Below, in pieces: positions 10,032 to 57,565 of a stretch of DNA of 64,000 bases. Position 1 is the first letter of the stretch. Each line of letters opens with the position of its first letter. The stretch spans positions 1-64,000 of the forward strand of contig JAABRD010000024.1 in NCBI GenBank assembly GCA_011391085.1, in the 5' to 3' direction. Origin of the DNA: Thiotrichaceae bacterium. GTDB lineage: Bacteria > Pseudomonadota > Gammaproteobacteria > Beggiatoales > Beggiatoaceae. The position numbers were made by a program, and so were the translations under genes. The notes beneath the pieces are model-generated. The model saw nothing but the letters and a program-made list of their open reading frames with translations. It ran no database searches and was not told the DNA's origin.

Positions 10032-10154
10032 GGTGGAGTAGAGGCTTTAGCCGGTGGGGGGACACGATACCGGCTGAAGCCTCTAGTCCACCGGTGATAC
10101 CGGCTGAAGCCTCTAGTCCACCGGTGGCACCGGCTGAAGCCTCTATCCACCGGC
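10032..10154. repeat. PAEAS-family palindromic repeat cluster
   Basis: One inverted copy (GGTGGAGTAGAGGCTTTAGC, from 10032) faces three direct copies of CGGCTGAAGCCTCTAGTCCA spaced 30 bases apart (10071, 10101, 10131), followed by a run of Ts. This is the commonest dispersed repeat in the window; relatives lie at 12246-12341, 16196-16320, 27618-27722 and 37025-37209, and in frame at 56001-56090. When read in one frame it encodes PAEAS. Confidence 0.9.
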
Positions 10155-12389: not shown

Positions 12390-12421
<32 letters not shown>

Positions 12422-16195: not shown

Positions 16196-16320
16196 CTAGA
16201 GGCTTCAGCCGGTCCCAGCCGGGACTAGAGGCTTCAGCCGGGACCAGGACTAGAGGCTTCAGCCGGGACCGGGACTAGAGGCTTCAGCCGGTCCTGGTCC
16301 CGGCTGAAGCCTCTAGTCCC
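16196..16320. repeat. PAEAS-family repeat cluster
   Basis: Three to four direct copies of GACTAGAGGCTTCAGCCGG separated by GC-rich spacers, ending in one inverted copy (CGGCTGAAGCCTCTAGTCCC). It starts at the ctaA stop codon and could form a strong hairpin behind that gene. Confidence 0.88.
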
Positions 16321-16343: not shown

Positions 16344-19331
16344 TTGAACATCGAGTTATATTTGGATGATTCCATTTTACCTATTACAACCGAAAACAAC
16401 CAAAATATGATTAATTCCATAAAACACTTCGTAGCACACCCCATCACTATATTAGCAGGTCTTATTGCTACCTTCATTGGTGGTGCAACCGCAATTGATC
16501 CAGACTGGACTTTACTGTACAACGGTTCAGTCATTTTACTGTTCGTTTCAATATTCCTTGATTATTTCTGGCAAAAGGAGGTTGTCCAAGGCAAAATCAC
16601 CGCCAACAAATCCCTCCTCTGCCGCCTCTTCCCTCGCTTCTGCTTTCGCAAAGCCTATTTACGCCATGTCTCCTTTGAACACCGCGTCTTTAATATCAAA
16701 GGCTTGCGGACTCGTGGGACTTATACCATTGAATTAGAACACGTCTTTGTCGAGTTACGCATTGCGCCGATGGCTAATCCGAATCGGCCTGATTCAAGTT
16801 TGGTGGGGGTGAAGGAGTTACAAGGGAATAAACCAATTTGGCAATTTTTACGGTATACCAAACAGCGACAAGCACCGTTGCAGGTTGCTATCATTGGGGC
16901 GCCGGGCAGTGGGAAAACGACTTTGTTACAGTATCTGGCTTTGGTGTTGGCCGTGGGTAAAGCAAAACGCTTTAAGGTCAAATTTCTTAATACGACCGTG
17001 CCGTTGCTGTTGGCTTTGCGTCAGCATACGCAGGCCATTTTGGAAAAGAAGTTGTTAGCTGACATTGCCCAAACGCATTTCAGTGGGAAAGACCGTTATC
17101 CCGATTTGTCTCCTCCAGAGGGTTGGTTTGCCCAGCAATTACAAACGGGGAAGTGTTTGGTGTTGTTAGATGGACTGGATGAAGTGGCCCAAACCAGTCA
17201 ACGTCGGCAAGTGTCGGAGTGGATTGATGAACAGATGGTGAATTATCCACGGTGTCAGTTTATCATTACCTCGCGTCCTTATGGTTATCAAGAGGCGCCG
17301 TTGAATCGAGTGGATGTGTTGGAAGTGCAACCGTTTAATCAATCTCAGGTGCGTCAATTTATCGATGCGTGGTATTTGGCCAATGAGGTGATGAGTTTTG
17401 GTGGCAAACAGGATGCGGGGGTGGTGTCGCGGGCGCAACAGGATGCGAAGGATTTATGGCGACGGTTGCAACACCGGCCCGTGTTGAGTGAATTGACGGT
17501 GAATCCGTTATTGTTGACCATGATTACGATGGTGCATCGTTATCGCGGGCAGTTGCCTGGGAAACGGGTGGAGTTGTATGCGGAAATTTGTGATGTGTTG
17601 TTAAGTCATTGGCGAGAAGCGAAAGGGATACAGGAGAAGTTGACCGCGGCGCAAAAGCGAGTGGCTTTGCAACCATTGGCGGCCAAGATGATGGAATCGC
17701 AAGTGCGTGAGTTGTCGACGGCAGAGGCGTTGGCAGTGATTCGGGCGCCGTTGCAAACGGTGGGGGTGGGAGAAGCGGAGGTGGAGAGTTTTTTGGAGGA
17801 GGTACAAAAGGGCAGTGGGTTGTTATTGGAACGGGAACGGGGCGTCTGGGGATTTGCGCATTTGACTTTTCAGGAATATTTGGCCGCGGCCCATTGGGTT
17901 GGACAGTCGTTATCAGAGGACTCGTGCCCCTCTCGGGTGGCGCAAAGTTGGTGGCAGGAGACCTTGCGTTTATACGCGGCCCAAGCCGATGCCACGCCGA
18001 TTGTTCGGGCTTGTTTGCAAGCTGGGAGTGTATTGGCTTTGACATTAGCCGCCGATTGTTTGGAGGAGGCGTTGAAATTGGATGCCACTGTGCGGGAGGC
18101 GGCGGAACAGCGGTTAATTGCGGGTTTGGAAGCAGCGGATAATGAACAGCGGAAGTTAGCGGCGGAAGTGAAGTTAAAACAGCGGTTAAAGCGGTTGCAA
18201 CGGCTGGATGAACATCGGGAGATTGATTTGCATTTTATCAGTTGTGCGGAGTATCAGTTGTTTTTGGATGAGAAACGGGCTGAAGGTAAGTTTTATCAAC
18301 CTGACCATTGGTTGGAATTTCAATTTCCCAAGGGAGAGGCATTGCGGCCCATTGCGGGAGTTCGGGCAGAAGATGCTGTGGCGTTTTGTCAGTGGTTATC
18401 TGAAAGGGAAGGGGTGCGTTATCGGTTGCCTACTAGGGAGGAGGCGGAAGAGAATCAGTCTCTGGAGGAGAGGGAAGTGGCGACTGGGTGTCAAGTGGGA
18501 GAGGGGGAATATGAGTTGGGGTGGTCATCATCACAGGAAGAAGGGGTGGTTAGGTCGAACCTCGCAAAATTGTTTGCCAATTTGTATGTGAATAAGTATT
18601 TTAGTATAGATGAGGTTAACCTCATCTATACTAAAATACCACAATTTAAATATAGCATCCGCGTCCTCGACCTCGACCTCGACCGCGTCCTCGACCGCGT
18701 CCTCGACCTCGACCTCGACCGCGTCCGCGACCGCGTCCTCGACCGCGTCCTCGACCGCGTCCGCGACCGCGTCCTCGACCGCGTCCGCGACCTCGACCGC
18801 GTCCGCGTCCGCGACCGCGTCCTCGACCGCGACCGCGTCCTCGACCGCGTCCTCGACCTCGACCGCGTCCTCGACCTCGACCTCGACCGCGTCCGCGTCC
18901 GCGACCGCGTCCTCGACCGCGTCCGCGACCGCGGCCCCGCCCTCAGCGTGGTGTATTCTAGCATAGAAAAAAGAAACTTTCAAGAGGCTTACCAGCAGTT
19001 ACAAACCTTCTCTCCCTCTTCTGATTATGACAAACGAAGAGTAAACTTGTTGAAAGCCCTGTTAAAAATATTGATGGCCACGACGAACCTACAACTGCTT
19101 TCAGCATGGCGACAATATGCGGCTTACCTGGTAGAATACGCAGTGATGGGTTATGAAATGTTAGAGAAAGAAGAACGTACTTGGTGGCAACGGTTACGTG
19201 GTAAAGCCAGTTACCAACGAGAAAAACGGGAACTGTCTATGCTTTACAGTTGGCTTCAAATCGTCATAGCCCGTGAAGCAGGCAAACTCCCGGCGTGGGA
19301 AGGGATTCGGGTGGTGAGGGAGAGGGAGTGA
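16344..19331 (+). CDS. NACHT-type STAND NTPase with FGE-like segment and hexamer-encoded dipeptide array
   Basis: 995 aa. A membrane-anchored N terminus (helices about 33-52 and 61-76) is followed by a NACHT ATPase: Walker A GAPGSGKTT (185-193), Walker B LVLLDGLDEV (about 271-280), the sensor-like FIITSRPYGYQE, and FAHLTFQEYLAAAHW, typical of NACHT proteins. Residues about 620-710 (ISCAEYQLFLDE, PIAGVRAEDAVAFCQWLSE, YRLPTREEAEE) resemble a formylglycine-generating-enzyme-like domain. Residues 773-862 are 45 dipeptides of only LD, RV and RD. STAND NTPases act as sensors or scaffolds, often in defence or signalling; this one's target is unknown. The start is TTG at 16344; ATG at 16407 is an alternative. 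Confidence 0.82.
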   Translation: MNIELYLDDSILPITTENNQNMINSIKHFVAHPITILAGLIATFIGGATAIDPDWTLLYNGSVILLFVSIFLDYFWQKEVVQGKITANKSLLCRLFPRFCFRKAYLRHVSFEHRVFNIKGLRTRGTYTIELEHVFVELRIAPMANPNRPDSSLVGVKELQGNKPIWQFLRYTKQRQAPLQVAIIGAPGSGKTTLLQYLALVLAVGKAKRFKVKFLNTTVPLLLALRQHTQAILEKKLLADIAQTHFSGKDRYPDLSPPEGWFAQQLQTGKCLVLLDGLDEVAQTSQRRQVSEWIDEQMVNYPRCQFIITSRPYGYQEAPLNRVDVLEVQPFNQSQVRQFIDAWYLANEVMSFGGKQDAGVVSRAQQDAKDLWRRLQHRPVLSELTVNPLLLTMITMVHRYRGQLPGKRVELYAEICDVLLSHWREAKGIQEKLTAAQKRVALQPLAAKMMESQVRELSTAEALAVIRAPLQTVGVGEAEVESFLEEVQKGSGLLLERERGVWGFAHLTFQEYLAAAHWVGQSLSEDSCPSRVAQSWWQETLRLYAAQADATPIVRACLQAGSVLALTLAADCLEEALKLDATVREAAEQRLIAGLEAADNEQRKLAAEVKLKQRLKRLQRLDEHREIDLHFISCAEYQLFLDEKRAEGKFYQPDHWLEFQFPKGEALRPIAGVRAEDAVAFCQWLSEREGVRYRLPTREEAEENQSLEEREVATGCQVGEGEYELGWSSSQEEGVVRSNLAKLFANLYVNKYFSIDEVNLIYTKIPQFKYSIRVLDLDLDRVLDRVLDLDLDRVRDRVLDRVLDRVRDRVLDRVRDLDRVRVRDRVLDRDRVLDRVLDLDRVLDLDLDRVRVRDRVLDRVRDRGPALSVVYSSIEKRNFQEAYQQLQTFSPSSDYDKRRVNLLKALLKILMATTNLQLLSAWRQYAAYLVEYAVMGYEMLEKEERTWWQRLRGKASYQREKRELSMLYSWLQIVIAREAGKLPAWEGIRVVRERE
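18596..18639. repeat. Perfect 44-bp palindrome inside the NACHT gene
   Basis: Arms of 22 bases (18596-18617 and 18618-18639, meeting at GAGGTTAACCTC) with no loop, translated in frame as part of KYFSIDEVNLIYTKI. It immediately precedes the hexamer array and looks like an inserted mobile palindrome. Confidence 0.9.
18660..18929 (+). repeat. 45-unit hexanucleotide array CKCGWC within the NACHT gene
   Basis: 270 bases read as exactly 45 hexamers of three kinds: CTCGAC (19), CGCGTC (19) and CGCGAC (7), encoding LD, RV and RD. The fourth possible word CTCGTC never occurs. Because each unit is two codons, gain or loss of units keeps the frame. The array is open in all six frames, which creates spurious Arg/Ser-rich and Thr/Ser-rich ORFs. 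Confidence 0.92.
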
Positions 19332-26628: not shown

Positions 26629-26632
26629 GTTT

Positions 26633-26751
26633 AGTGGATAGTGGATAGTGGATAGTGGATAGTGGAGGGTTTTCAGTTCCCACTATCCACTAAAACTACT
26701 ATCCACCAATAAAAGTACTATCCACTAAATCCACTATCCACTATCCACTAT
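26633..26751. repeat. GTGGATA heptamer tandem and inverted array between rplW and rplB
   Basis: Five head-to-tail TAGTGGA units from 26633 face several inverted TCCACTA units in 26680-26751, making a long potential hairpin that ends six bases before the rplB ATG. Normally this gap is under 20 bases in gammaproteobacteria. Confidence 0.9.
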
Positions 26752-32439: not shown

Positions 32440-32467
32440 ATCCGCTATCCGCTATCCGCTATCCGCT
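32440..32467. repeat. Heptamer tandem ATCCGCT x4
   Basis: Four exact head-to-tail copies in the rpsH-rplF gap. The TATCCAC-type heptamers near rplB are of similar style. Confidence 0.9.
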
Positions 32468-32492
32468 AAAAACAGGATGAGAGTTAACAACT

Positions 32493-34726: not shown

Positions 34727-34736
34727 ACAGATTTGA

Positions 34737-35009
34737 AGATTTGACAACTTTTAAAAAGTTGTCAAATCTTGGATAAATCTCAACAGAACGGACGTTCTCA
34801 CGAAATCCGTTGTACTCTTAGGAGAGAAGATTTGACAACTTTTAAAAAGTTGTCAAATCTTGGATAAATCTCAACAGAACGGACGTTCTCACGGAATCCG
34901 TTGTACTCTTAGGAGAGAAGATTTGACAACTTTTAAAAAGTTGTCAAATCTTGGATAAATCTCAACAGAACGGACGTTCTCACGGAATCCGTGAGATTTC
35001 GTCAATCCG
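34737..35009. repeat. Three tandem copies of a 91-bp repeat between rplO and secY
   Basis: Units start at 34737, 34828 and 34919, nearly identical. Each contains the GATTTGACAACTTTT hairpin, a CAACAGAACGGACGTTC stretch and an AGGAGAG end. After the third unit a partial, altered end runs to about 35027 with TTAGGAGAATTG just before secY. It fills the 313-base gap. Confidence 0.93.
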
Positions 35010-36943: not shown

Positions 36944-37342
36944 TAGTATGCGAGTGGTCCCTGTAAAATCATAAGGCTGTCATGGAGATTTTAGACAATT
37001 TGACAATAGCATGAAACGTGCCCCGGTGGAGTAGAGGCGGTAGCCGGTGGAAGGTTGGCACACCCCCGAAAACCGGGACCACCCTCACCGGCTGAAGCCT
37101 CTACTCCACCATGACATAGCCCTGGTGGAGTGGAGGCGGTAGCCGGTGGAAGGTTGGCACACCCCCGAAAACCGGGACCACCCTCACCGGCTGAAGCCTC
37201 TACTCCACCGGGGCCATGTTGGGATGTGTTCGTCAATCTTTTATAGATTTTTATGATGGGCGACACCTCTAACCTATCGTTTTTGCAGAGACTGCCAACA
37301 TGATTCACTATTCACTATCCACTATTCATTATCCATATAAGT
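36944..37342. other. Repeat-filled gap between rpsM and rpsK
   Basis: 399 bases where a few are usual. The core is the duplicated PAEAS unit (37025-37209). The last 40 bases are CACTATCCACTATTCAT-type repeats. No promoter is obvious. Confidence 0.7.
37025..37209. repeat. Direct duplication of an 80-bp PAEAS-family inverted repeat
   Basis: Two nearly identical copies (37025-37110 and 37133-37209), each beginning GGTGGAGT(A/G)GAGGCGGTAG and ending GAAGCCTCTACTCCACC, with an identical interior containing TTGGCACACCCCCGAAAACC. Confidence 0.92.
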
Positions 37343-46388: not shown

Positions 46389-47708
46389 CTACTCTCTTAT
46401 TACTGTAGCCTCGGCCCAACCGGACTGCACCAAAGAATCTATAATAAATTGTCCACGATTGCCCCAGATAGGATGCCGTTCGAGAGACAATTGATCCGCC
46501 AGTAATTCAGCCTCCTCGGCAGGTGTACGTCCTGATTCTTCAGCACGATGTAATATTTCTAAACAACGTTGGTAAATACCGGTGGGAGTTTGTTGCTGGA
46601 GATGGGCCATAATCACCGGGTCATTTTCGATTACGCCATATTGTTCGTTAGCGCAGTTAACAATTCCCATTCGATTGGCGAGAAAGTCTGGGATGTAGAG
46701 GACACCTTTGGGAAAGAGTTTGGCATCTCTTTTGGGGTCTTCAAGTTGATTGTTTGCGGCGCCACAAACCACTTTTGCCTGAATCAGTGGGATAGTTGCA
46801 GAATTGAGAGTGGCGCCCAACGCATTGGGTGCCAATACATCTCCTGCTTCTTTCAAGATAGAATTATCCCCCGGCGCCACTAAGCGTAACTCTAATGGTG
46901 CCCCAACATATTGTGTTTTAGCCTTATCAAGTGCTAATGGATTAACATCCGAACCAATTATTTTGGCAACTCTGCGGTTGAGTAATTCTTTTATCATGTA
47001 AAAAGACACATTTCCAACGCCCTGTATGACAACCGTTTTTCCCTCTAACCGGCCCAGTCCCAAATATTCAAGTGCCGCTTCAATAGCCACCACGACGCCA
47101 GTTGCAGTTAAAATACTAGGATTACCGCTTCCGCCAAATTCTGCTGGAATACAAGTAGTATGGCGGGTTGTAGAAAACACCTGTGCCATATCGTTAGGCA
47201 CGGTTCCGGCGTCTTCAGCAGTCACGTAACATCCCCTCAGGCTAGACATAAAACGCCCATAGTCTTGATAAATAGCTTTGCGTAATTCGGGATGGCGGTA
47301 ATCATTCCCTTCCTGTCGCGCAATAACACCCTTGCCTCCTCCCCACCATAAACCAGCTAAGGCACATTTTTGTCCCATACCACGACTGAGGCGTAGGCCC
47401 TCTCGGATATAGTCTTCTAAGCGGTCGTAATGCCACAACCGAACCCCACCCGCCGCTTGTCCGCGTAGCGTCAGGTGAATAAAAGTGCCGAGTAAATGAC
47501 CACTTTGACGACCGATCTCAAAAAACATCCCTTGATGTTTTTGATAGTCTCTGGTATCTGCTTGTAACGCCTCAACCACATTTTGCAAAATTGGGTGACT
47601 GCCCTGTAGTTGTCTTGTTTGAGGATGAGTCACTATAAATGCACGTTCCCGCTGATTGTCTTTCATTGCTTCAATCAAGGTTGCGGGTGGTAATTGCCAT
47701 AAATTCAT
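46389..47708 (-). CDS. Glu/Leu/Phe/Val dehydrogenase family enzyme
   Basis: 439 aa from the ATG before NLWQLPPATL. NAD(P)-dependent amino-acid dehydrogenases deaminate an amino acid to its 2-oxo acid. GLWWGGGKGV holds the catalytic Lys and VTAEDAGT the catalytic Asp. The Rossmann motif reads VVIQGVGNVSFYMIKEL, with Ser in place of the third Gly. The size and the LAPNALGATLN/CGAANNQL segments are like leucine/valine dehydrogenases. Substrate cannot be set from sequence alone. Upstream is a GGAGTCCAAAAC palindrome. Confidence 0.82.
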   Translation of the reverse strand: MNLWQLPPATLIEAMKDNQRERAFIVTHPQTRQLQGSHPILQNVVEALQADTRDYQKHQGMFFEIGRQSGHLLGTFIHLTLRGQAAGGVRLWHYDRLEDYIREGLRLSRGMGQKCALAGLWWGGGKGVIARQEGNDYRHPELRKAIYQDYGRFMSSLRGCYVTAEDAGTVPNDMAQVFSTTRHTTCIPAEFGGSGNPSILTATGVVVAIEAALEYLGLGRLEGKTVVIQGVGNVSFYMIKELLNRRVAKIIGSDVNPLALDKAKTQYVGAPLELRLVAPGDNSILKEAGDVLAPNALGATLNSATIPLIQAKVVCGAANNQLEDPKRDAKLFPKGVLYIPDFLANRMGIVNCANEQYGVIENDPVIMAHLQQQTPTGIYQRCLEILHRAEESGRTPAEEAELLADQLSLERHPIWGNRGQFIIDSLVQSGWAEATVIRE

Positions 47709-47738
47709 TTTGATACCTGTTTCAATTGTTTCGATTGA

Positions 47739-47764
47739 GGAGTCCAAAACAAGTTTTGGACTCC
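47739..47764. repeat. GGAGTCCAAAAC palindrome
   Basis: GGAGTCCAAAACA/AGTTTTGGACTCC hairpin just upstream of the dehydrogenase gene. Same family as the copies inside the ribosomal cluster. Confidence 0.9.
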
Positions 47765-49060: not shown

Positions 49061-51109
49061 TTATTGACAAACCCCATAATCTGCTGCCACCATTGAAAAC
49101 ATACCAGATTGACAAAAGTCGGCATCGGTAATGTCAAGTTTAGTGCTTGGTGGCGCACTCAATCTCATGGTCGCCGCCAACTCTTGAACCGTTCCTAGTT
49201 GACTTCTTCTAAGGGATTGTGTGGCAGGTGAAACATCGTCACCTTGACTTCCTAAAAAGTACGGGCCAAAGTTGACATACCAACCATGTCCATAAGGAAA
49301 GTCATTCGTGGTATCGTTAGCCGCTTTGTCCCATTCCGCCTTGCAGGCAGTGGCAAGCAGATTACCTCTGCACATGTGTCCACCTTCTCCTTTTTGTTCC
49401 TGTTTGAAACAACAAATGTCATGGAGAATGCTACCAACAGTGACAAATCCTTTGGCCATACAGCTAGAAGTATCTAACGTCACAGGATGAACTGGATCCG
49501 GAATGATTTGACACCCAGGACCCGAAGCACCAAAACAACGTTGCGGTGTTTCAAAGTCACAGGCGGATTTTTGCCTTGCTGGACTTACCCACCACCCAAT
49601 CAATTCAGCGCCTTCCTTTATCCTATCGGCAAAATAGGCTACTCGTTTCGCAAATTCTCCTACTGCATCAGAAACTTTAGCCACTCCTTCGGCAAACGCT
49701 GCTACCGCGCAAAACAGTTGACATAAGGGTGGAAAGAGTACAGCGGCCACTCTAGCAATCGATGCTACTACCTTGGCTACAGCACTAATTACTTGCGTCA
49801 CTTTAACCACAAACCGGGCCACCTTCGCCACAAAACCGGCGACTTTGCCAATGAAACGAGTGACTGAGCTGAAGACATTTTTTATCCCTTTCCACAGCTT
49901 ACTAAAAAAGCCTCTCGTGTTTTTTGGCAATACGACACACACGCCATTCTGATTGTCTATCATGGTGTAATTGCCCTGCGAATCAATATGCACGACCATA
50001 TTGTTCACTAGGTCCTGAACCTTGTACTCATTATTCCCATAAACCGTCGCTATCAGGTTAGGAAACTCCTCATCGGTGACCGTGTAACTGCCATCAAGAT
50101 TGATGACCGCCAGCGCAGTCGGATATTCGGAATCCGTGACCGTCTTCACCCCCGTCGTCTTATCAAACGATAAAGACATCGTGGGGTCATCACTGTCAGT
50201 CGCCGTGATATTCCCGGCGCTATCAATCGCTACCGTGACCGTGGGCGACTCACTATCTGCCGCGGTATAAGTCCCGTCCTGATTGGCCGTGACAGACACG
50301 GTGGGAAACTCAGGGTCCATGAAGGAAACCGAACCATCAGGATTCGTTCGCGCATCTAAGGCAATCTCCTCCCCGGTCTCACTCACATTCTTGCCCACCA
50401 AAATAGAAAACTCGTTGGTGTCACTACGACGCGAACGAGTGCCATCGTTAGGTGACACATAAACTTGGGACGCTTGATTATCGCCCTGATAAGTATCACC
50501 CACCTGATTGACTTGCATTTCCGTCTTTTCTGTGGCATCCTTATTGGGCTTGACCAACATATCATACTCACTGTTGGACACCATCACCCCATCATCACGC
50601 ATCGACCAAATTTCCGTGGGCGTAGTTCCGATCAGGCCAAAATTCACCTTGATCGTTTGACTGGTCTTTGGCACCGTCAAATCATAAAACGCCGGTTGCC
50701 CAACCTCCCCGGCCACGGGCGTAACTTGCCGCATATCAGGGGGTATATCAATCCAAAGGGTAAAATCACCGGCATTGTTACCAAAAAAATAGTAACAGCC
50801 GTCCCCACCAGTCACGGCGGTAAAAAAACCACCTTGGCCAGTTTGGACTAATTGGTTGTCCATCAGGTAAACCACGGCATTGGCTTGAACCAGTTCGCCG
50901 GCATCATAAGTGCCATTGCTGTTCTGGTCCAAAAAGACGCAACCTTGGAAATCGACGGCATTGACCGCCGGTAGCCAGACCGAAAAGATGGCGAGTGTTC
51001 CAGCCATTAGCCACTGTGTCAGGGATTCTCGCCACCCGACCTTCTGGGCTTGCGCCCGTAATTGGCCTCCTCTACCAGAGGCGTGTTTATTGAGATTTGA
51101 ACAAGACAT
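49061..51109 (-). CDS. Secreted SdrD-B-like repeat protein with amphipathic and cysteine-rich C terminus
   Basis: 682 aa. Signal peptide ends near residue 51 (WLPAVNAVDF). Residues 53-160 form an SdrD B-like domain (GCVFLDQNSNGTYDAGELV). Residues about 250-400 contain six to seven ~22-residue repeats of the type DGSYTVTDEEFPNLIATV. A Val/Ala-rich amphipathic stretch follows (about 420-510; FIGKVAGFVAKVARFVVKV). The C-terminal part is Cys-rich and includes VGSILHDICCFKQ, reminiscent of the His-Asp-x-Cys-Cys active-site helix of phospholipase A2, though the calcium loop is not evident. Likely exported; role unknown. Confidence 0.6.
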   Translation of the reverse strand: MSCSNLNKHASGRGGQLRAQAQKVGWRESLTQWLMAGTLAIFSVWLPAVNAVDFQGCVFLDQNSNGTYDAGELVQANAVVYLMDNQLVQTGQGGFFTAVTGGDGCYYFFGNNAGDFTLWIDIPPDMRQVTPVAGEVGQPAFYDLTVPKTSQTIKVNFGLIGTTPTEIWSMRDDGVMVSNSEYDMLVKPNKDATEKTEMQVNQVGDTYQGDNQASQVYVSPNDGTRSRRSDTNEFSILVGKNVSETGEEIALDARTNPDGSVSFMDPEFPTVSVTANQDGTYTAADSESPTVTVAIDSAGNITATDSDDPTMSLSFDKTTGVKTVTDSEYPTALAVINLDGSYTVTDEEFPNLIATVYGNNEYKVQDLVNNMVVHIDSQGNYTMIDNQNGVCVVLPKNTRGFFSKLWKGIKNVFSSVTRFIGKVAGFVAKVARFVVKVTQVISAVAKVVASIARVAAVLFPPLCQLFCAVAAFAEGVAKVSDAVGEFAKRVAYFADRIKEGAELIGWWVSPARQKSACDFETPQRCFGASGPGCQIIPDPVHPVTLDTSSCMAKGFVTVGSILHDICCFKQEQKGEGGHMCRGNLLATACKAEWDKAANDTTNDFPYGHGWYVNFGPYFLGSQGDDVSPATQSLRRSQLGTVQELAATMRLSAPPSTKLDITDADFCQSGMFSMVAADYGVCQ

Positions 51110-51667
51110 GTTCGTATTCCTTTTGTGTTAGTTGTCTGAATCAGAATTTTCAGAATGTTAGAATTAGCAGAATGGTGATTCGGTTAATTCTGTGAGTTTG
51201 GCAAAGACTGCCGTTGTGTTTGATGATAGGGGGTCAGCCTGGGTGTTGACCTGCGTCTGTATTCCTTATATATATAGATTAAGTTCAATTCGAGAAACTC
51301 AGTTTCTTGAAGAAACTGAGTTTCGGTTCTTTTGTTGTGCCCGTGGGTCTAAATATAAGGGCATCAAGTGTTAAATCATAGGTAACTTTCGTTTAACAAA
51401 GTGTTCAATTTCGTTTAACACTGGCAAACCTCATAGAGATTAAGTTCCGTTCGAGAAACTCAGTATTTTGAAAAAACTGAGTTTCAGCCAGGTAGGGTGG
51501 GCAAACGTCTTTTGGTTTGCCCACGGATTTTGATGGCGGGGGGGTTGGGGGGCAATGGTAAGGCGCGTTGCCCACCCTACCTGGCTGCCATTAAGCCAGG
51601 GAATTGACAGAAACTTCAACAGTCTATATCATAAAGCATTTTAAACTCTGGTTAATTTCAATCAACC
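51110..51667. other. Repeat-rich gap
   Basis: About 560 bases without a supported gene. 51130-51160 has an ATTCTGATTCAGACAA-type repeat also found at 105-121 in the window. 51292-51324 and 51452-51485 are GAAACTCAG palindromes. 51497-51524 pairs GTGGGCAAAC with GTTTGCCCAC, and 51560-51590 is another GTTGCCCACCCTAC unit. Confidence 0.7.
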
Positions 51668-52036
51668 ATGTCCTTTAAAATTAAATTTACTCAAACAGCT
51701 ACCAACCATATACGGGCACTGCGCAAATTTGAACAACAATTGATTCTGGATGCCATCGAAGAACAATTGGTTTATGAACCTCATCAGGAAACTAGAAATA
51801 GAAAGCGTCTAAGATATAACAACATTTCTGATTGGGAACTACGTGTTGACAAATATAGAATATTTTATGATTTGGTGATAACTGAAGAAAAACACATTGT
51901 GAAAATCAAACCGGTTGGCCATAAAGCTCACAACACTTTGCACACTGGTGGCCGGCCAGGAGACAAAATTATGAAAGTGATAGAAATGGAAAGTTGGTAT
52001 CCCACCCTTGCTGAAGTGATAAGTCTAGCGGTGTGA
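51668..52036 (+). CDS. RelE/ParE-type toxin fused in frame to an antitoxin stub
   Basis: 122 aa. Residues 1-98 are a RelE/ParE-family toxin: KFTQTATNHIRALRKFEQQ, RNRKRLRYNNISDWELRVDKYRIFYD and the VKIKPVGHKAHNTLHTGG end. Residues 102-122 (MKVIEMESWYPTLAEVISLA) look like the start of the usual downstream antitoxin, whose own AGGAG-ATG is visible at 51957-51973, but the frame stops soon after. So the toxin stop was lost or the two were joined, and the antitoxin is truncated. The toxin's RNA-cleaving residues cannot be fixed by eye. Confidence 0.75.
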   Translation: MSFKIKFTQTATNHIRALRKFEQQLILDAIEEQLVYEPHQETRNRKRLRYNNISDWELRVDKYRIFYDLVITEEKHIVKIKPVGHKAHNTLHTGGRPGDKIMKVIEMESWYPTLAEVISLAV

Positions 52037-52234
52037 CAATCCGTTTACGCACATTAACCCACGGGTAATACGTTTGTGTTGGCCTCGATAGATGACTTTG
52101 ACGTGGTGGTCAACGTCTTTTTGTTGCCCACCATTTAGGTGGTGAAATAGGAAGGCAACGGTAAACCGCGTTGCCCTCCCTACAAATACTATAAATACTA
52201 TGCAATATAGAAAATCTTCCCGCTTCTCATAACT

Positions 52235-55200
52235 ATGACCCCTTCCCCCCTTATCCTCCTTGGAATGCACCGTAGTGGCACTTCCGCTTTAATGCGTGTG
52301 CTAAATCTACTCGGTGTGGAAATCGGTTCTCATCTCTTGCCCAAACATCATACCAATGAAACTGGTTTTTGGGAGTGGTTCCCCATGGTCCAGGCCCATG
52401 AAACCATCTTCCAATTGCTTCACTCCACCTGGTTTAACCCGCTACCTTTGCCTCCTCAATGGTGGCAATCGGAATCCTTGACGGCTTTGCAAGTGCAAAT
52501 GAAGCAAGTGTTGCATCATCAGTTTGCTAACAGTCCTCTGTGGGGAATGAAAGACCCGCGGTTGTGTCGTTTGCTACCTTTTTGGTTACCAATTTTAGAC
52601 TCGTTGGGAATGTCGCCCAAATTTGTGATAATCGCCAGACCGCCTGAAGAAGTAGCCGCCTCTTTAAAACGTCGTGATGACTTCTTTCTGCATGAAACAG
52701 CTTTGTGGTTATGGCTAACCTACATGTTAGAAGCCGAACAGTATTCGCAACCTTATGCTAGAGTGTGGGTGACTTATGACGAATTATTAACCGATTGGCA
52801 AGCCACCGTCACCAAAATTGCGTCGGTGTTGACTCTTAAATGGCCCCATACGCCGACTTCAGTGCAATCCCAAGTGCAAGATTTCTTAACCCCCAATTTG
52901 AGACATCATCATACAGAAGAATGTCCAAAACAGGGACGCGAGGAGATGTTGTTAAGCTGGAGTCAATCGGTCTATTCAGTCATTTGTGAAGCGGCCCAAG
53001 GGAGGTGTGAAGGGTTGCAATCGGTGGGGGAGATTCGGCACGCTGTTGAAGCATTTGCAATCCGTCGGCCACGGTTTTATTTGGCAGACAAAAGTTACCA
53101 AATTTATTTGGAAAGACATTGTAGTGATGTTCTTTCATTCTTGTACCCCCCCCTACCCCCCCGCACGCGGGGGGGAGTCATTTCCCTTAGGGAGGAAGTC
53201 ATTCCCCCCGTACACAGGGAGTTAGGGGGGTATAGAAATGGGAAAACGTCACCCGTGTTGAATCAGCCTCCATTGCCATGTTTAGCACAGCCGTTACCTA
53301 CCTTTCATTTATTCATTGTGCAACGTCCTGGGCAATCAGTTTTCTATTTGAATGCTACTCTGGCTTCTTTGCATAATCAAACTTATCCTCATTGGCAAGT
53401 TCATTTATCATTCCCGACACTTCCAACTGAGGGAGAGGCGGGAGGCGAGTGGGTGGCAGTGTTGCACGCGGGGGATACGTTGGCACCTGAATTACTGTGG
53501 TGGTGTGTACTCTATATTCACCGTTATCCGCAGTGGTGGTTGCTTTATACCGATGAGGATTTATGGTCTCCTCAAGGAGAACACTATGCCCCGCAATTTA
53601 AGCCGGACTGGAATTTAGATTTATTACGTTCCACGCCTTATATTGGCGGTTTCGTCTTGGTGCAACGGGAAGCGTTGCAACAGGTGGGAGGTTATGCGAA
53701 TTATCCTCTTTTGGAAAATGTTGATCTGGCTTTGAAACTTTGGGAACGTTATGGGGAGTCGACACTTGGACATGTTCCTTACGTCCTCTATCATCGTGCC
53801 ACGGTCAATGCGCTGGAGTATTGGCCGGCGACAACTGAGTCTGCTATCGCGATTTTACAACAACATTGTAAACGTCAAGCTATCTCGGCGCAAGTCTATG
53901 AAACGGATTTTTTCAACCTGTATTGTATTGAATATTCGTTAGAAAAAACGCCACTGGTCTCTCTTATTCTGACCACTCGAAATGACCCTCAGTCGTTGCA
54001 ACGTTGCCTCCACAGTCTGTTGACCGTGTCCACTTATCCGCATTATGAAGTTATCGTGGTGGACAATCACAGTACCACGGAGGAGATGAGGACGTATCTA
54101 ATGGGGTTGATGAAGCATGAGAAGATTCAAGTGTTGTTTAGTAAACAGGAAAGGAATGTGTCTCAACTGCTTAACCTCGCGGTGGCCCACGCCCAAGGTA
54201 GCATCCTCTGCTTTCTCAATGACGACTCTCAAATTATCCAACCGTCAGGGTTGCAAGAGTTATTGTCTCATTGTTTGCGTCCAGAAGTAGGTGCCGTGGG
54301 ACCGCGCCTGTTAGGGGCCGATCATCGATTATTGCATTCTGGTTTGATATTGGGAATGGGGGTAGCTGGGGTGGCAGGACGGGTTCATCATGGTTTGGGG
54401 CACGATGAACTGGGTTATCTGGGACGTAATCAAGTGGCCCAGAATTTTTCCGCTATTTCAGATACTGGCTTGATGATTGAAAAGTCTCTCTATTTAGAAG
54501 TGGGTGGCATGGAGGAGACATTCAATTTGTTCAATGAAGTGGAGTTCTGTTTAAAGATCACTGCTACAGGTAAAAAAATGGTCTGGACTCCCTTTGCCAC
54601 CCTTCTGCAACACGGACCTGGCAGTGTGATTCGGTATCGGGATAATTCGTTGAATAATCAACAATTTGAAACTGAGGTGGAGCGTCTTCAAACACGTTGG
54701 ATGTCACACCTTCGAGAGGACCCGGCGTATCATCCGCATCTCAGTTTACATGGTTCTGAATGGCAACCTGACAGTCAAATAACAGTACCTTGGAATCCTC
54801 ATTTTCAGGATCGTCCACGGGTGGTTGCGTTTCCTTATGACAGTTGGGGTTGCGGAGAATATCGAGTGCGGGCGCCATTACGGGCGTTGCAACGGGCTTC
54901 CATGATAGAATATGCTTTGATGCCCAATGATAAAGAAGGTCGCATTCCTACCCCTACAGAATTGGCGCGGTTGCAACCAGATACGGTGTTGTTACATAAT
55001 ACGTTACAGGATGAGGCATTGCAACGATTGAAACAGTATCAAGAGGTGGTGCCAGGTTTCAAAATTTTTGGACAAGATGACCTTTTGTTTGCCTTGCCCA
55101 AGGCCAATCCTTATCGTCGTCTCAATTATCGGGACCTGAAACCTAGAATTGGCAAAGCGATTTCTCACTGTGATCGTCTGTTGGTCACGACCGAACCGTT

Positions 55201-56707
55201 GGCAGAGATTTATCAATATGTGGCTTCCGACATTCGGATCGTGCCGAATTATTTAGAACGTCACCGTTGGGATTTTCTCACTTCCCACCGTCGCCAGGGA
55301 CGCCAACCGCGGGTGGGCTGGGCTGGGGCAGCGCAACATCAGGGAGATTTGCAATTGATTATTCCATTGGTCATCACGTTAGCTTCGAAGGAGGAGGTGG
55401 AATGGGTCTTCTTTGGAATGTGTCCAGAGGAGTTACGGCCTTATGTTTCCGAATATCATCCAATGGTTCCCTTTGACGAATATCCTGCTAAATTGGCCAG
55501 TTTGAACTTGGATGTGGCGATAGCACCGTTAGAGATTCACCCGTTCAATGAAGCAAAGAGTCACTTGCGTTTGTTAGAATATGGTATCTTAGGTTGGCCA
55601 GTGATATGTTCAGATATTTATCCTTATCAATCGGCCCCTGTGACTCGTGTTCCTAACACGTCGCAAGCCTGGTTGCAGGCTGTACGTGAACATATTTATG
55701 ATTTGGAAGCGGCCCAGCAAGCAGGAGAAGAATTAAGGCAGTGGGTAAAGAAATATTGGTTACTAGAAGACCATTTAGATGAATGGGCGGAGGCGTTAAA
55801 TGTTAGCAGTCGTCGTTTAAAAACCAGTTCTCTAGGAGGAAACAGCGTAGTTTCGTCCGAACCTTCCGTTATTTTTCTACTTGGCAACGATTTCACCAGT
55901 TGCCATTTCTTGGAATCTATTTTGACTCAACATTCGTCTATAGTCAGTGTGTCAGAAGCCGATTTTTTTGCGGAAGTTCATGCGAAATTGAATATGCGTT
56001 CACCGGCTGAAGCCTCCACTTCGGGATGTTGTTCACCGGCTGAAGCCTCCACTTCGGGATGTTGTTCACCGGCTGAAGCCTCCACTCCGGTATCTCCTCA
56101 TTTTCGTTATATTGTAGAACTTTGGACTGAATGGGAAGAGGAGTTTCGTTATGTGGCTGACTCTGGTTTATCTCATCGGGCGGATTTGTTGAAACGACGT
56201 TGGGCAAAGGTATTAGATTATTCTCCGACTCGTTTCGTTATCTATTCGGCGGCGGTATCTATGGCTAAAACGCAGTGGTTGCAACAGCATTTTCCGAATG
56301 CTTACTTCATTCATATTGTTCGCAATGGTTATGCGGTGGCGTTGGAGTTACGCGACAGGATTCAGCAACAATATGGTGTGCAACCTTTGTTATTGTCAAG
56401 GACGGCGCGGCATTGGGCGCGTAGTTTAGAGATTTTGCAAGAGGATATGGGTTGTTTGAAACGATTTTTGGAAATTCGTTATGAGGAGATAATAACTGAT
56501 CCTTCCGCCGTTTTTCAACAGATAGCAGGTTTTTTGCAGTTACCTGAACTTCATTTCTCTCCTTCGCTGCATGGCGCCTCGCAAAAGTTAGATAGATTGA
56601 ACCAAATGACGGCTGCACAACGGGCGGTGATTGAAAGGGAGGCGGGGAAGAGATTGGAGTGTCGTAATATTTTTCAAACTTGTACAATTTACGCTGGAGC
56701 GCAATAA
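52235..56707 (+). CDS. Four-part sulfotransferase/glycosyltransferase fusion
   Basis: 1490 aa. Residues 1-270: sulfotransferase domain with the PAPS 5' loop LGMHRSGTSAL and WGMKDPRLCRLLPFW. Residues about 350-560: GT2-like fold (LYTDEDLWSPQGEHYAPQF). About 570-810: a second GT2 domain (LVSLILTTRNDPQSLQRCL, VVDNHST, FLNDDSQI). About 850-1200: a GT-B-like domain (RVGWAGAAQHQGDLQLI, DVAIAPLEIHPFNEAKSHLR). About 1210-1490: a second sulfotransferase-like domain (VIFLLGNDFTSCHFLES, FIHIVRNGYAVALELR). It likely builds sulfated surface glycans. Two translated repeat insertions lie in linkers (53142-53235 and 56001-56090). Confidence 0.82.
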   Translation: MTPSPLILLGMHRSGTSALMRVLNLLGVEIGSHLLPKHHTNETGFWEWFPMVQAHETIFQLLHSTWFNPLPLPPQWWQSESLTALQVQMKQVLHHQFANSPLWGMKDPRLCRLLPFWLPILDSLGMSPKFVIIARPPEEVAASLKRRDDFFLHETALWLWLTYMLEAEQYSQPYARVWVTYDELLTDWQATVTKIASVLTLKWPHTPTSVQSQVQDFLTPNLRHHHTEECPKQGREEMLLSWSQSVYSVICEAAQGRCEGLQSVGEIRHAVEAFAIRRPRFYLADKSYQIYLERHCSDVLSFLYPPLPPRTRGGVISLREEVIPPVHRELGGYRNGKTSPVLNQPPLPCLAQPLPTFHLFIVQRPGQSVFYLNATLASLHNQTYPHWQVHLSFPTLPTEGEAGGEWVAVLHAGDTLAPELLWWCVLYIHRYPQWWLLYTDEDLWSPQGEHYAPQFKPDWNLDLLRSTPYIGGFVLVQREALQQVGGYANYPLLENVDLALKLWERYGESTLGHVPYVLYHRATVNALEYWPATTESAIAILQQHCKRQAISAQVYETDFFNLYCIEYSLEKTPLVSLILTTRNDPQSLQRCLHSLLTVSTYPHYEVIVVDNHSTTEEMRTYLMGLMKHEKIQVLFSKQERNVSQLLNLAVAHAQGSILCFLNDDSQIIQPSGLQELLSHCLRPEVGAVGPRLLGADHRLLHSGLILGMGVAGVAGRVHHGLGHDELGYLGRNQVAQNFSAISDTGLMIEKSLYLEVGGMEETFNLFNEVEFCLKITATGKKMVWTPFATLLQHGPGSVIRYRDNSLNNQQFETEVERLQTRWMSHLREDPAYHPHLSLHGSEWQPDSQITVPWNPHFQDRPRVVAFPYDSWGCGEYRVRAPLRALQRASMIEYALMPNDKEGRIPTPTELARLQPDTVLLHNTLQDEALQRLKQYQEVVPGFKIFGQDDLLFALPKANPYRRLNYRDLKPRIGKAISHCDRLLVTTEPLAEIYQYVASDIRIVPNYLERHRWDFLTSHRRQGRQPRVGWAGAAQHQGDLQLIIPLVITLASKEEVEWVFFGMCPEELRPYVSEYHPMVPFDEYPAKLASLNLDVAIAPLEIHPFNEAKSHLRLLEYGILGWPVICSDIYPYQSAPVTRVPNTSQAWLQAVREHIYDLEAAQQAGEELRQWVKKYWLLEDHLDEWAEALNVSSRRLKTSSLGGNSVVSSEPSVIFLLGNDFTSCHFLESILTQHSSIVSVSEADFFAEVHAKLNMRSPAEASTSGCCSPAEASTSGCCSPAEASTPVSPHFRYIVELWTEWEEEFRYVADSGLSHRADLLKRRWAKVLDYSPTRFVIYSAAVSMAKTQWLQQHFPNAYFIHIVRNGYAVALELRDRIQQQYGVQPLLLSRTARHWARSLEILQEDMGCLKRFLEIRYEEIITDPSAVFQQIAGFLQLPELHFSPSLHGASQKLDRLNQMTAAQRAVIEREAGKRLECRNIFQTCTIYAGAQ
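53142..53235. repeat. In-frame palindromic repeat in the glycosyltransferase gene, site 1
   Basis: TACCCCCCC at the start faces GGGGGGGTA at the end, with an inner CCCCCCGC/GCGGGGGG hairpin. The unit is translated as a Pro/Arg-rich linker (YPPLPPRTRGGV and PPVHRELGGY) between the first sulfotransferase domain and the first GT domain. Confidence 0.8.
56001..56090 (+). repeat. In-frame PAEAS repeat in the glycosyltransferase gene, site 2
   Basis: Three direct 33-nt units starting CACCGGCTGAAGCCTCCACT at 56001, 56034 and 56067. Each adds 11 residues (SPAEASTSGCC). The unit belongs to the PAEAS family that is otherwise intergenic here (10032, 12246, 16196, 27618, 37025). Confidence 0.92.
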
Positions 56708-56733
56708 GCATTATTGCGCAATAATGCTTATTG
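56701..56733. terminator. Palindrome at the end of the glycosyltransferase gene
   Basis: CAATAAGCATTATTGC (56702-56717) faces GCAATAATGCTTATTG (56718-56733). It overlaps the stop codon and lacks a T run, so it may stabilise the mRNA 3' end rather than terminate. Confidence 0.65.
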
Positions 56734-56902
56734 TGCGTAAGTGGGAATTGGATAAGTTTATCGGTAGTGATGCAATGTGGGTTCTTTGTCTGAACTTTGA
56801 TTAGAATGATTTTCAGATGGACTCTGATTCGTCAAGCCTCCTTTCATAGCCCTCATTTAATCATATAAATCATAGTTCAAGACTAAGAAACCTCACGATA
56901 TT

Positions 56903-57565
56903 TCACCCAGTTTGCATTACTACCCTATTTTCCATCACCCACGGTGCCTCTTGCCGCCGCCGTTGTTCATAACTTCTGATTTCCTGGGCATGTTGCAACG
57001 TCAGTCCAATGTCATCCAGACCATTGAGTAAGCAATGTTTCCTAAAAGATTCTATGTGGAACCCACAAATCTTTCCTTCTGAGGTCATCACTGTTTGGGC
57101 CGCGAGATCAATGGTCAGTTGATAGCCAGGATTGGCTTCGACTTCTTGAAACAACATATCCACCGTCGTTTCATCTAACACAATGGGCAAAATGCCATTT
57201 TTGAAACAGTTGCTATAAAAAATGTCGGCAAAACTGGGGGCGATGAGGGCGCGAAAACCGTAATCAAGCAGGGCCCACGGGGCATGTTCACGACTGGAAC
57301 CACAGCCAAAATTGCGCCGGGCCAGTAGAATAGTAGTCCCCTGATAACGCGGTTGATGGAGGAAAAAATCTGGATTGAGGGGACGTTTGTTGCAATCTTG
57401 ACCCGGTTCACCGTGGTCTAAATAACGCCATTCGTCAAAGAGGTTAGGTCCAAAACCAGTTCGATGAATCGATTTTAGAAATTGTTTAGGGATGATGGCA
57501 TCGGTGTCCACATTCGCCCGATCTAAAGGGGCGACTAGGCCAGTTAAGAGAGTAAATGGTTGCAT
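56903..57565 (-). CDS. leuD: 3-isopropylmalate dehydratase small subunit
   Basis: 220 aa. With LeuC it converts 2-isopropylmalate to 3-isopropylmalate in leucine synthesis. [31 protein letters not shown] and [17 protein letters not shown] are the conserved active-site and interface segments. Length fits the proteobacterial type. leuC and leuB are not beside it, so the leucine genes are scattered. Confidence 0.95.

Follow-up and report, generated by a model that had tools for sequence, protein, structure and literature searches.

An open reading frame (ORF) on the plus strand at positions 52235-56707 of a 64,000-nucleotide stretch of DNA from a Thiotrichaceae bacterium related to the giant sulfur bacteria (assembly GCA_011391085.1, contig JAABRD010000024.1, positions 1 to 64,000; hereafter the window) encodes a single polypeptide of 1490 amino acids, in which a glycosyltransferase core of ~800 residues is flanked by a sulfotransferase (ST) domain at the N-terminus (N-ST) and an ST-like domain at the C-terminus (C-ST). 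We propose, with about even confidence, that this protein is a protein (or glycan) glycosyltransferase resembling the flagellin glycosyltransferases (Fgt), which would sulfate its own product by means of the N-ST and carries a pseudo-sulfotransferase tail. The domain layout, its recurrence in related genomes, the intact motifs of the N-ST, the lost motifs of the C-ST and the homology of the core to flagellin-linked genes are established by sequence or by structural model. The protein thus unites a core that is shared with flagellin-linked glycosyltransferases, an exchanged tailoring module and a putative pseudo-sulfotransferase at its end; no description of an ST-core-ST fusion was found in the open-access papers searched, which does not show that none exists.

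Domain architecture of the 1490-residue protein

The frame runs uninterrupted from an ATG at 52235 to a stop codon at 56705-56707 and is far longer than expected by chance, since shuffling the surrounding 5 kb 200 times gave no open frame longer than 282 codons. The initial annotation had read the order ST, two glycosyltransferase family 2 (GT2) domains, GT-B and ST in one polypeptide. Pfam, which recognises both terminal STs and the second GT2, and an AlphaFold model of the core (residues 386-1198, 17 alignment rows, mean predicted local distance difference test (pLDDT) 84), which resolves the GT-A and GT-B folds, agree with this order and define it as ST, degenerate GT2, intact GT2, GT4-type GT-B and ST-like domain from N- to C-terminus. 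The best stretch of PF00685 lies at residues 5-227 (32.7 bits for the whole protein, cut-off 22), PF00535 covers residues 576-690 of the second GT2, and the best stretch of PF13469 lies at residues 1225-1437 (E 1.1e-19 for the whole protein, two stretches), the match starting at profile position 14, after most of the loop that binds 3′-phosphoadenosine 5′-phosphosulfate (PAPS). For the first GT2 and the GT-B there was no Pfam match above cut-off, and an Rfam scan of 51000-57500 returned nothing at gathering score.

Two explanations were rejected. A chimeric assembly or a chance frame is unlikely because the full layout is present in five other proteins, and the possibility that the terminal domains are not STs is ruled out by Pfam, PDB profile and fold matches, both domains matching ST profiles (PF00685 and PF13469) in the search that the initial annotation had recommended.

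Recurrence of the fused proteins

The fusion also occurs elsewhere in the bacterial family: six other genomes, one of them a metagenome-assembled genome (MAG) of Thiomargarita, hold seven further copies. Five of them have the full layout (L012 in genome G010, L013 in G023, L014 in G020, L192 in G049 and L193 in G051), and the core with a C-terminal ST is present in L191 (G049, different N-terminus) and L194 (G053, frame interrupted by N). The C-ST was searched for by profile in 42 family genomes, which are the same 42 that represent the whole sampled order, and by BLAST in the fetched loci. At E <= 1e-10 the profile gave 21 matches in 15 genomes, comprising eight fused copies (seven genomes), ten standalone proteins of ~250 amino acids and three distant matches.

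In a quick tree of 115 rows the fused cores form a single clade (Shimodaira-Hasegawa-like approximate likelihood-ratio test 100), in which the long-branched L184, a protein without ST, is also placed; several fused rows have an unusual composition. The tree left out duplicate or partial loci (L015, L137, L147, L153, L154, L159, L160, L161, L187, L194, L205, L206 and L207), further skipped loci and core matches shorter than 700 residues. Outside the family, an N-ST and core without C-ST were found in L050 (an alphaproteobacterial MAG) and L180 (G196), and L183, which gave a BLAST match to the N-ST but no match to the PAPS-loop pattern, was not counted as a clear case. As far as searched, the ST-core-ST layout has been seen only in one family of sulfur bacteria.

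The glycosyltransferase core and its relation to flagellin genes

Residues ~566-850 of the core model match polypeptide N-acetylgalactosamine (GalNAc)-transferases among the matches listed, and residues ~858-1194 match GT4 enzymes, namely sucrose-phosphate synthase, MMP mannosyltransferase and BshA. The second GT2 has the features of a GT-A enzyme: the PF00535 match, NDD as the DxD-type motif, an acidic base region and the GT-A fold. At the DxDD site of the first GT2 the window protein reads HAGD; of 17 aligned rows, 16 have Gly at the second acidic position and the remaining row has Glu. Because its DxD motif is gone, the first GT2 is probably not a working site in this protein family, so that the three glycosyltransferase regions of the initial annotation stand as regions while its count of active sites is probably too high.

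The core is widespread, with 237 confirmed stretches, and the best 80 of these were analysed together with 369 stretches from a larger class, queried with N-ST plus core. Directly downstream of the core, on the same strand and with a start within ~400 bp, a flagellin frame lies in 20 of the 80 loci, and a downstream flagellin frame was also seen in 10 of 26 class loci fetched with a flank of only 1.5 kb (the class cores L168 and L171 duplicate those of L045 and L049). All of these frames were picked out by a sequence pattern, and the Flagellin_N model confirmed the link in genome G102 (L165), the core being located at C53:51080-53503 and flagellin at C53:53834. The window core is about 36-44% identical over ~790 amino acids to genes with flagellin directly downstream.

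Flagellin_N found no match in any of the nine family genomes searched (9/9), among them the window's own genome, the six with the full layout (own included) and G053 with the partial layout, while two matches were obtained in the outside control genome G102. According to an excerpt of PMC4853749, Thiomargarita is not known to move by flagella. Since no flagellin was found in the nine family genomes searched, the core enzyme family appears to have been retained without its usual target, and we describe the window protein as working like Fgt without classing it as a flagellin glycosyltransferase.

The N-terminal sulfotransferase

The GMHRSGTS loop, the KDPR stretch and the positions of the 3′-phosphate motif R.P..V.ASL..RD of the N-ST are invariant in 8/8 aligned rows, and from these intact motifs we infer that the N-ST is active. 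A search for PAPS synthesis genes, as advised by the initial annotation, identified an adenosine 5′-phosphosulfate (APS) kinase in the window's own genome (PF01583, contig C90, 233 bits, E 5.3e-69), which is not specific since APS kinase is also present in 11 of 14 control genomes. The position before the core appears to be a slot for tailoring enzymes: among 11 scanned long relatives without ST it is occupied by a methyltransferase in five (L051, L053, L062, L118 and L205) and by further glycosyltransferase or RgpF domains in the remaining six. The idea that one polypeptide may both transfer sugar and sulfate is supported.

The C-terminal sulfotransferase-like domain

Where a PAPS loop is expected, the window C-ST reads LLGNDFTSCHFLES, and both sequence and alignment agree with the earlier remark that this domain has no obvious GxxRSGT loop. 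Its nearest non-fused relatives are the standalone STs, which have the loop GCYNSGT and are 37-42% identical to it. Ten standalone copies share 94 invariant positions, which served as the reference set (Table 1). The window retains only 2/18 of these over the PAPS-loop, EGQF and EKSP motifs, against 56/76 at the other invariant positions, and its 3′-phosphate motif IVRNGYAVAL is complete.

Table 1. Positions invariant in ten standalone STs that are retained in fused copies
Copy	PAPS loop (of 7)	EGQF region (of 6)	EKSP (of 5)	3′-phosphate motif (of 7)	Elsewhere (of 69)
Window	1	1	0	7	49
L191	5	2	2	7	44
L193	5	1	3	4	43
L192	4	2	1	6	42
L014	1	0	1	0	36
L013	0	0	1	1	35
L012	2	1	1	2	24

The EKSP lysine is kept in 10/10 standalone copies and lost in 8/8 fused ones (Ser in the window); the EGQF glutamate is replaced by another residue in six fused copies (Ala in the window), falls in a gap in L193 and is Glu in a poorly aligned stretch of L012. 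SGT is retained in three of the eight fused copies (L191, L193 and L194), reads SGI in L192 and is gone in the window, L012, L013 and L014. In a profile alignment the EGQF Glu and the EKSP Lys fall near the GEE and NKDP stretches of tyrosylprotein sulfotransferase (TPST) 1, whose Glu and Lys we take to be catalytic residues in TPST. We read the C-terminal domain as a pseudo-sulfotransferase, with a structural role or decaying, and the suggestion in the initial annotation that it may be inactive gains support from the comparison with the standalone copies. A single branch (support 99/99) separates fused from standalone copies in the C-ST tree, which is consistent with a single fusion; L012, L013 and L014 form long branches.

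A 33-bp unit that includes ACCGGCTGAAGCCTC is repeated 2.8 times, in frame, within the window C-ST; none of the 16 other rows in the C-ST alignment has it. The 15-mer core of this repeat has 1431 matches with at most one mismatch in the window's own genome, 323 of them exact (reversed control, 0); G010 has 12 exact copies and the remaining 40 family genomes have none, so that 2/42 genomes are positive. A GC-rich hairpin repeat, CCCGCACGCGGGGGGGAG, lies in the coding linker after the N-ST at 53150-53240 and has 183 genome matches with at most two mismatches (reversed control, 0). Both in-frame repeats are missing from L012, L013 and L014. Their presence in the linker and in part of the C-ST fits a loose constraint on these segments. 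In the window, ACCGGCTGAAGCCTC is dispersed at 10069-10143, 16199-16313, 37087-37200 and 56002-56082.

Candidate acceptors

Genes for Calx-beta proteins lie near the fused gene in 3 of the 8 loci, those of G023 and G020 and the L191 locus of G049, and these proteins are mutually homologous (E 4e-87 to 3e-12). In both G023 and G020, two of the three Calx-beta matches in the whole genome adjoin the fused gene, with a divergent PF13712/GT2 glycosyltransferase gene in between. Near the fused gene of G049 we also observed a 1559-residue polypeptide (L191, 11640-16316) with several ST stretches and a GT2 domain, with a standalone ST farther on. The window gene is preceded by a ParE-like ORF and by divergently oriented genes encoding a 682-residue protein (SdrD_B-like, below cut-off) and a 404-residue protein, with a PKD/DUF11/VWA protein farther away; a leuD-like ORF (by eye) lies downstream. 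No recognised exporter or polymerase was present among the Pfam-scanned neighbours, which are part of all neighbours (5 in the window and 8 near three other loci).

Proposed function and alternatives

The sugar, the acceptor, the sulfation itself and the role of the C-terminal domain are what we infer in the following scheme. The core would come from a family often encoded directly before flagellin genes and would have been retained in a gammaproteobacterial lineage without detected flagellin. The acceptor to which its second GT2 and GT4-type GT-B would attach sugars would most likely be a surface protein, with the Calx-beta and PKD repeat proteins as candidates, or else a short glycan carried by such a protein; the first GT2 would be structural or acceptor-binding. 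Using PAPS, the N-ST would sulfate the growing or finished glycan from the slot held by a methyltransferase in several relatives. The C-terminal domain would descend from the standalone STs of the same family, have lost its catalytic residues and now act as a scaffold, bind the acceptor or be decaying. A more specific version, in which a flagellin-type enzyme of large sulfur bacteria without flagellin has been re-aimed at Calx-beta/PKD surface proteins to build a sulfated bacterial O-glycoprotein with one polypeptide and the TPST-like fold of the C-terminal domain recognises the acceptor protein, seems improbable to us.

Several observations weigh against the scheme. No flagellin match lies near the core in 60 of the 80 loci, some of which are cut by contig ends, and L167 alone is flagellin-linked among the seven rows without fusion that lie closest to the fused clade, most of these rows having a flank of only 1.5 kb. 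Among PDB sequence profiles, the core matches chondroitin synthase best. Next to the window gene there is no Calx-beta gene, the two matches of its own genome being on other contigs, and none was seen at the loci of G010, G051 or L192 (a 7.6-kb contig). With 14 Calx-beta matches in G049 and 16 in G051, such proteins are frequent there and the neighbour in G049 may be due to chance; moreover, the G049 gene that has it (L191) is without N-ST. The model of the C-ST is of low quality (mean pLDDT 48.7), yet its first 13 Foldseek matches are tyrosylprotein STs, with template-modelling scores of about 0.4. Finally, L191 and L193 keep five of seven PAPS-loop positions each and may have weak activity.

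The 60 core loci without a nearby flagellin match and the profile match to chondroitin synthase also favour the surface polysaccharide suggested by the initial annotation, for which the core would extend a lipid-linked or free polysaccharide (O-antigen or exopolysaccharide) that the N-ST sulfates. Chondroitin and heparosan synthases are both among the top Foldseek matches of the core, L053 and L056 hold RgpF domains (rhamnan synthesis) in the same polypeptide, and the PF13712/GT2 gene adjoins the fused gene in G023 and G020. However, the neighbours scanned with Pfam include no recognised exporter or polymerase, the first GT2 is without the DxD expected of a two-site polymerase, and the listed structural matches of the second GT2 are polypeptide GalNAc-transferases. 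We hold this account to be a real though tentative possibility. Protein O-glycosylation is preferred, and a surface polysaccharide appears less likely as the product, since the core's most evident genomic association is with flagellin genes.

A second alternative concerns the C-terminal domain, which might be a neutral remnant of the fusion, decaying and without a role. The C-ST is the least conserved part of the fused copies (mean pairwise identity 33.7%, compared with 48.2% for the N-ST and 52.6% for the core), it tolerates a repeat array in the window, L012, L013 and L014 keep few of the non-motif positions (Table 1), and the frames of L012 and L193 stop slightly before the end of the family, the search alignments having run on past their stops. 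On the other hand, the frame is open across most of the domain in 7/7 aligned copies, all seven retain P, W and E at the positions around LWTE, and the window retains most of the non-motif invariant positions counted above, which makes mere baggage somewhat unlikely. It is very improbable that both STs work, each on its own position or substrate, the C-terminal one by means of an atypical PAPS loop: the fully kept 3′-phosphate motif of the window and the SGT of three fused copies speak for it, but the window has lost all three of SGT, the EGQF glutamate and the EKSP lysine, the last of these is gone from every fused copy, and a repeat array is inserted in the domain.

On balance, the observations of the initial annotation are confirmed and its interpretation is partly supported. 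If the Fgt-like function that we propose is correct, sulfation and protein glycosylation would be tied together in one bacterial enzyme, and an enzyme that decorates flagellin would have outlasted the flagellum itself by switching to another target. It would also name testable surface-protein substrates in large sulfur bacteria, and the standalone intact, fused with SGT and fused without SGT copies would offer a natural series for studying how a sulfotransferase becomes a pseudoenzyme.

Feature coordinates and other observations

The features of the fused gene are collected in Table 2.

Table 2. Features of the fused gene in the window
Feature	Positions	Strand	Basis
N-terminal ST domain, residues ~1-275, motifs intact	52235..53059	+	PF00685; conserved motifs
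PAPS (5′-phosphosulfate-binding) loop GMHRSGTS of the N-terminal domain	52262..52285	+	Sequence reading; invariant in 8/8 aligned rows
Linker with in-frame copy of the dispersed GC-rich hairpin repeat (exact 18-mer 53160-53177)	53150..53240	+	183 genome matches
First GT2 (GT-A) domain, DxD degenerate (HAGD), start approximate	53252..53929	+	Alignment and model
Second GT2 (GT-A) domain with NDD and acidic NEVEF motif	53930..54784	+	PF00535; Z 22.5-24.1 to polypeptide GalNAc-transferases (among matches listed)
GT4-type GT-B domain (GWAGAAQHQGDL ... FNEAKSHLRLLEYG)	54806..55819	+	Model residues 473-809 against GT4 structures, Z <=25.4
C-terminal putative pseudo-sulfotransferase domain	55865..56704	+	PF13469; family profile matches CurM ST and TPST1; motif losses
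Degenerate PAPS loop GNDFTSCHF (standalone relatives: GCYNSGTTL or near)	55883..55909	+	C-ST alignment
2.8 in-frame 33-bp copies of the dispersed repeat (SPAEASTSGCC) within the C-terminal domain	55998..56090	+	Tandem Repeats Finder

Elsewhere in the window, tandem arrays of heptamers were found at 12390-12421, 26632-26666 and 32440-32468 (ATTTTCC, TAGTGGA and ATCCGCT, respectively); heptamer repeats of different sequence are mentioned for related bacteria in an excerpt of PMC4853749. A 91-bp unit is repeated 2.8 times with 99% match at 34735-34992, with an inverted repeat within it (by eye), and 23 copies of a 12-bp repeat lie at 18659-18933, inside an ORF of 995 amino acids (16344-19331). 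The ORF at 46389-47747 is related to the tryptophan dehydrogenase ScyB (NF035922, E 1.7e-56, under the family cut-off). Two other loci of the same genome, L131 (2-4975) and L132 (807-9503), hold frames of 1658 and 2899 amino acids with an ST domain and parts that resemble nonribosomal peptide or polyketide synthases by eye.

Comparison with known systems

The E. coli K4 chondroitin polymerase and the P. multocida heparosan synthase have tandem GT2-type domains, as does the window core, and in these enzymes both GT2 sites are active. The window protein differs in that its first GT2 is without DxD, so that it has no second site of this kind, and in the added GT-B and ST domains.

Among STs, the standalone GCYNSGT proteins of the same family (~250 amino acids, PF13469-related) have an intact PAPS loop, EGQF and EKSP and are encoded by separate genes. 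Tyrosylprotein sulfotransferases and the CurM ST (PDB 5wrj, 3ap1 and 4gbm), structures deposited as sulfotransferases, rank first among the profile and fold matches to the C-ST family, the C-ST being 13-22% identical to them over the fold match of its low-confidence model.

The methyltransferase proteins of flagellin loci (L053, L062 and L118) share the core and likewise carry a tailoring enzyme earlier in the same polypeptide; they differ from the window protein in having a methyltransferase instead of an ST and in having no C-terminal ST. L050 and L180 are closer, with an N-terminal ST that contains GMHRSGTS before the same core, again without a C-terminal ST.

In P. aeruginosa PAO1, PA1091 (FgtA) combines a GT2 with a phosphotransferase, according to an excerpt of PMC11833859, for which reason the core is not equated with FgtA here. 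The nearest parallel may be P. syringae, in which, from excerpts of the respective papers, the fgt1 and fgt2 genes lie before fliC, Fgt1 is reported to attach rhamnose to serine (PMC3927599), and deletion of fgt1 renders flagellin non-glycosylated (PMC3402453). The P. viridiflava homologue of the core (L109) lies directly upstream of flagellin, which is a likeness of position to fgt1/fgt2. Unlike Fgt1 and Fgt2, the window protein belongs to a genome without a flagellin match and has ST domains added at both ends.

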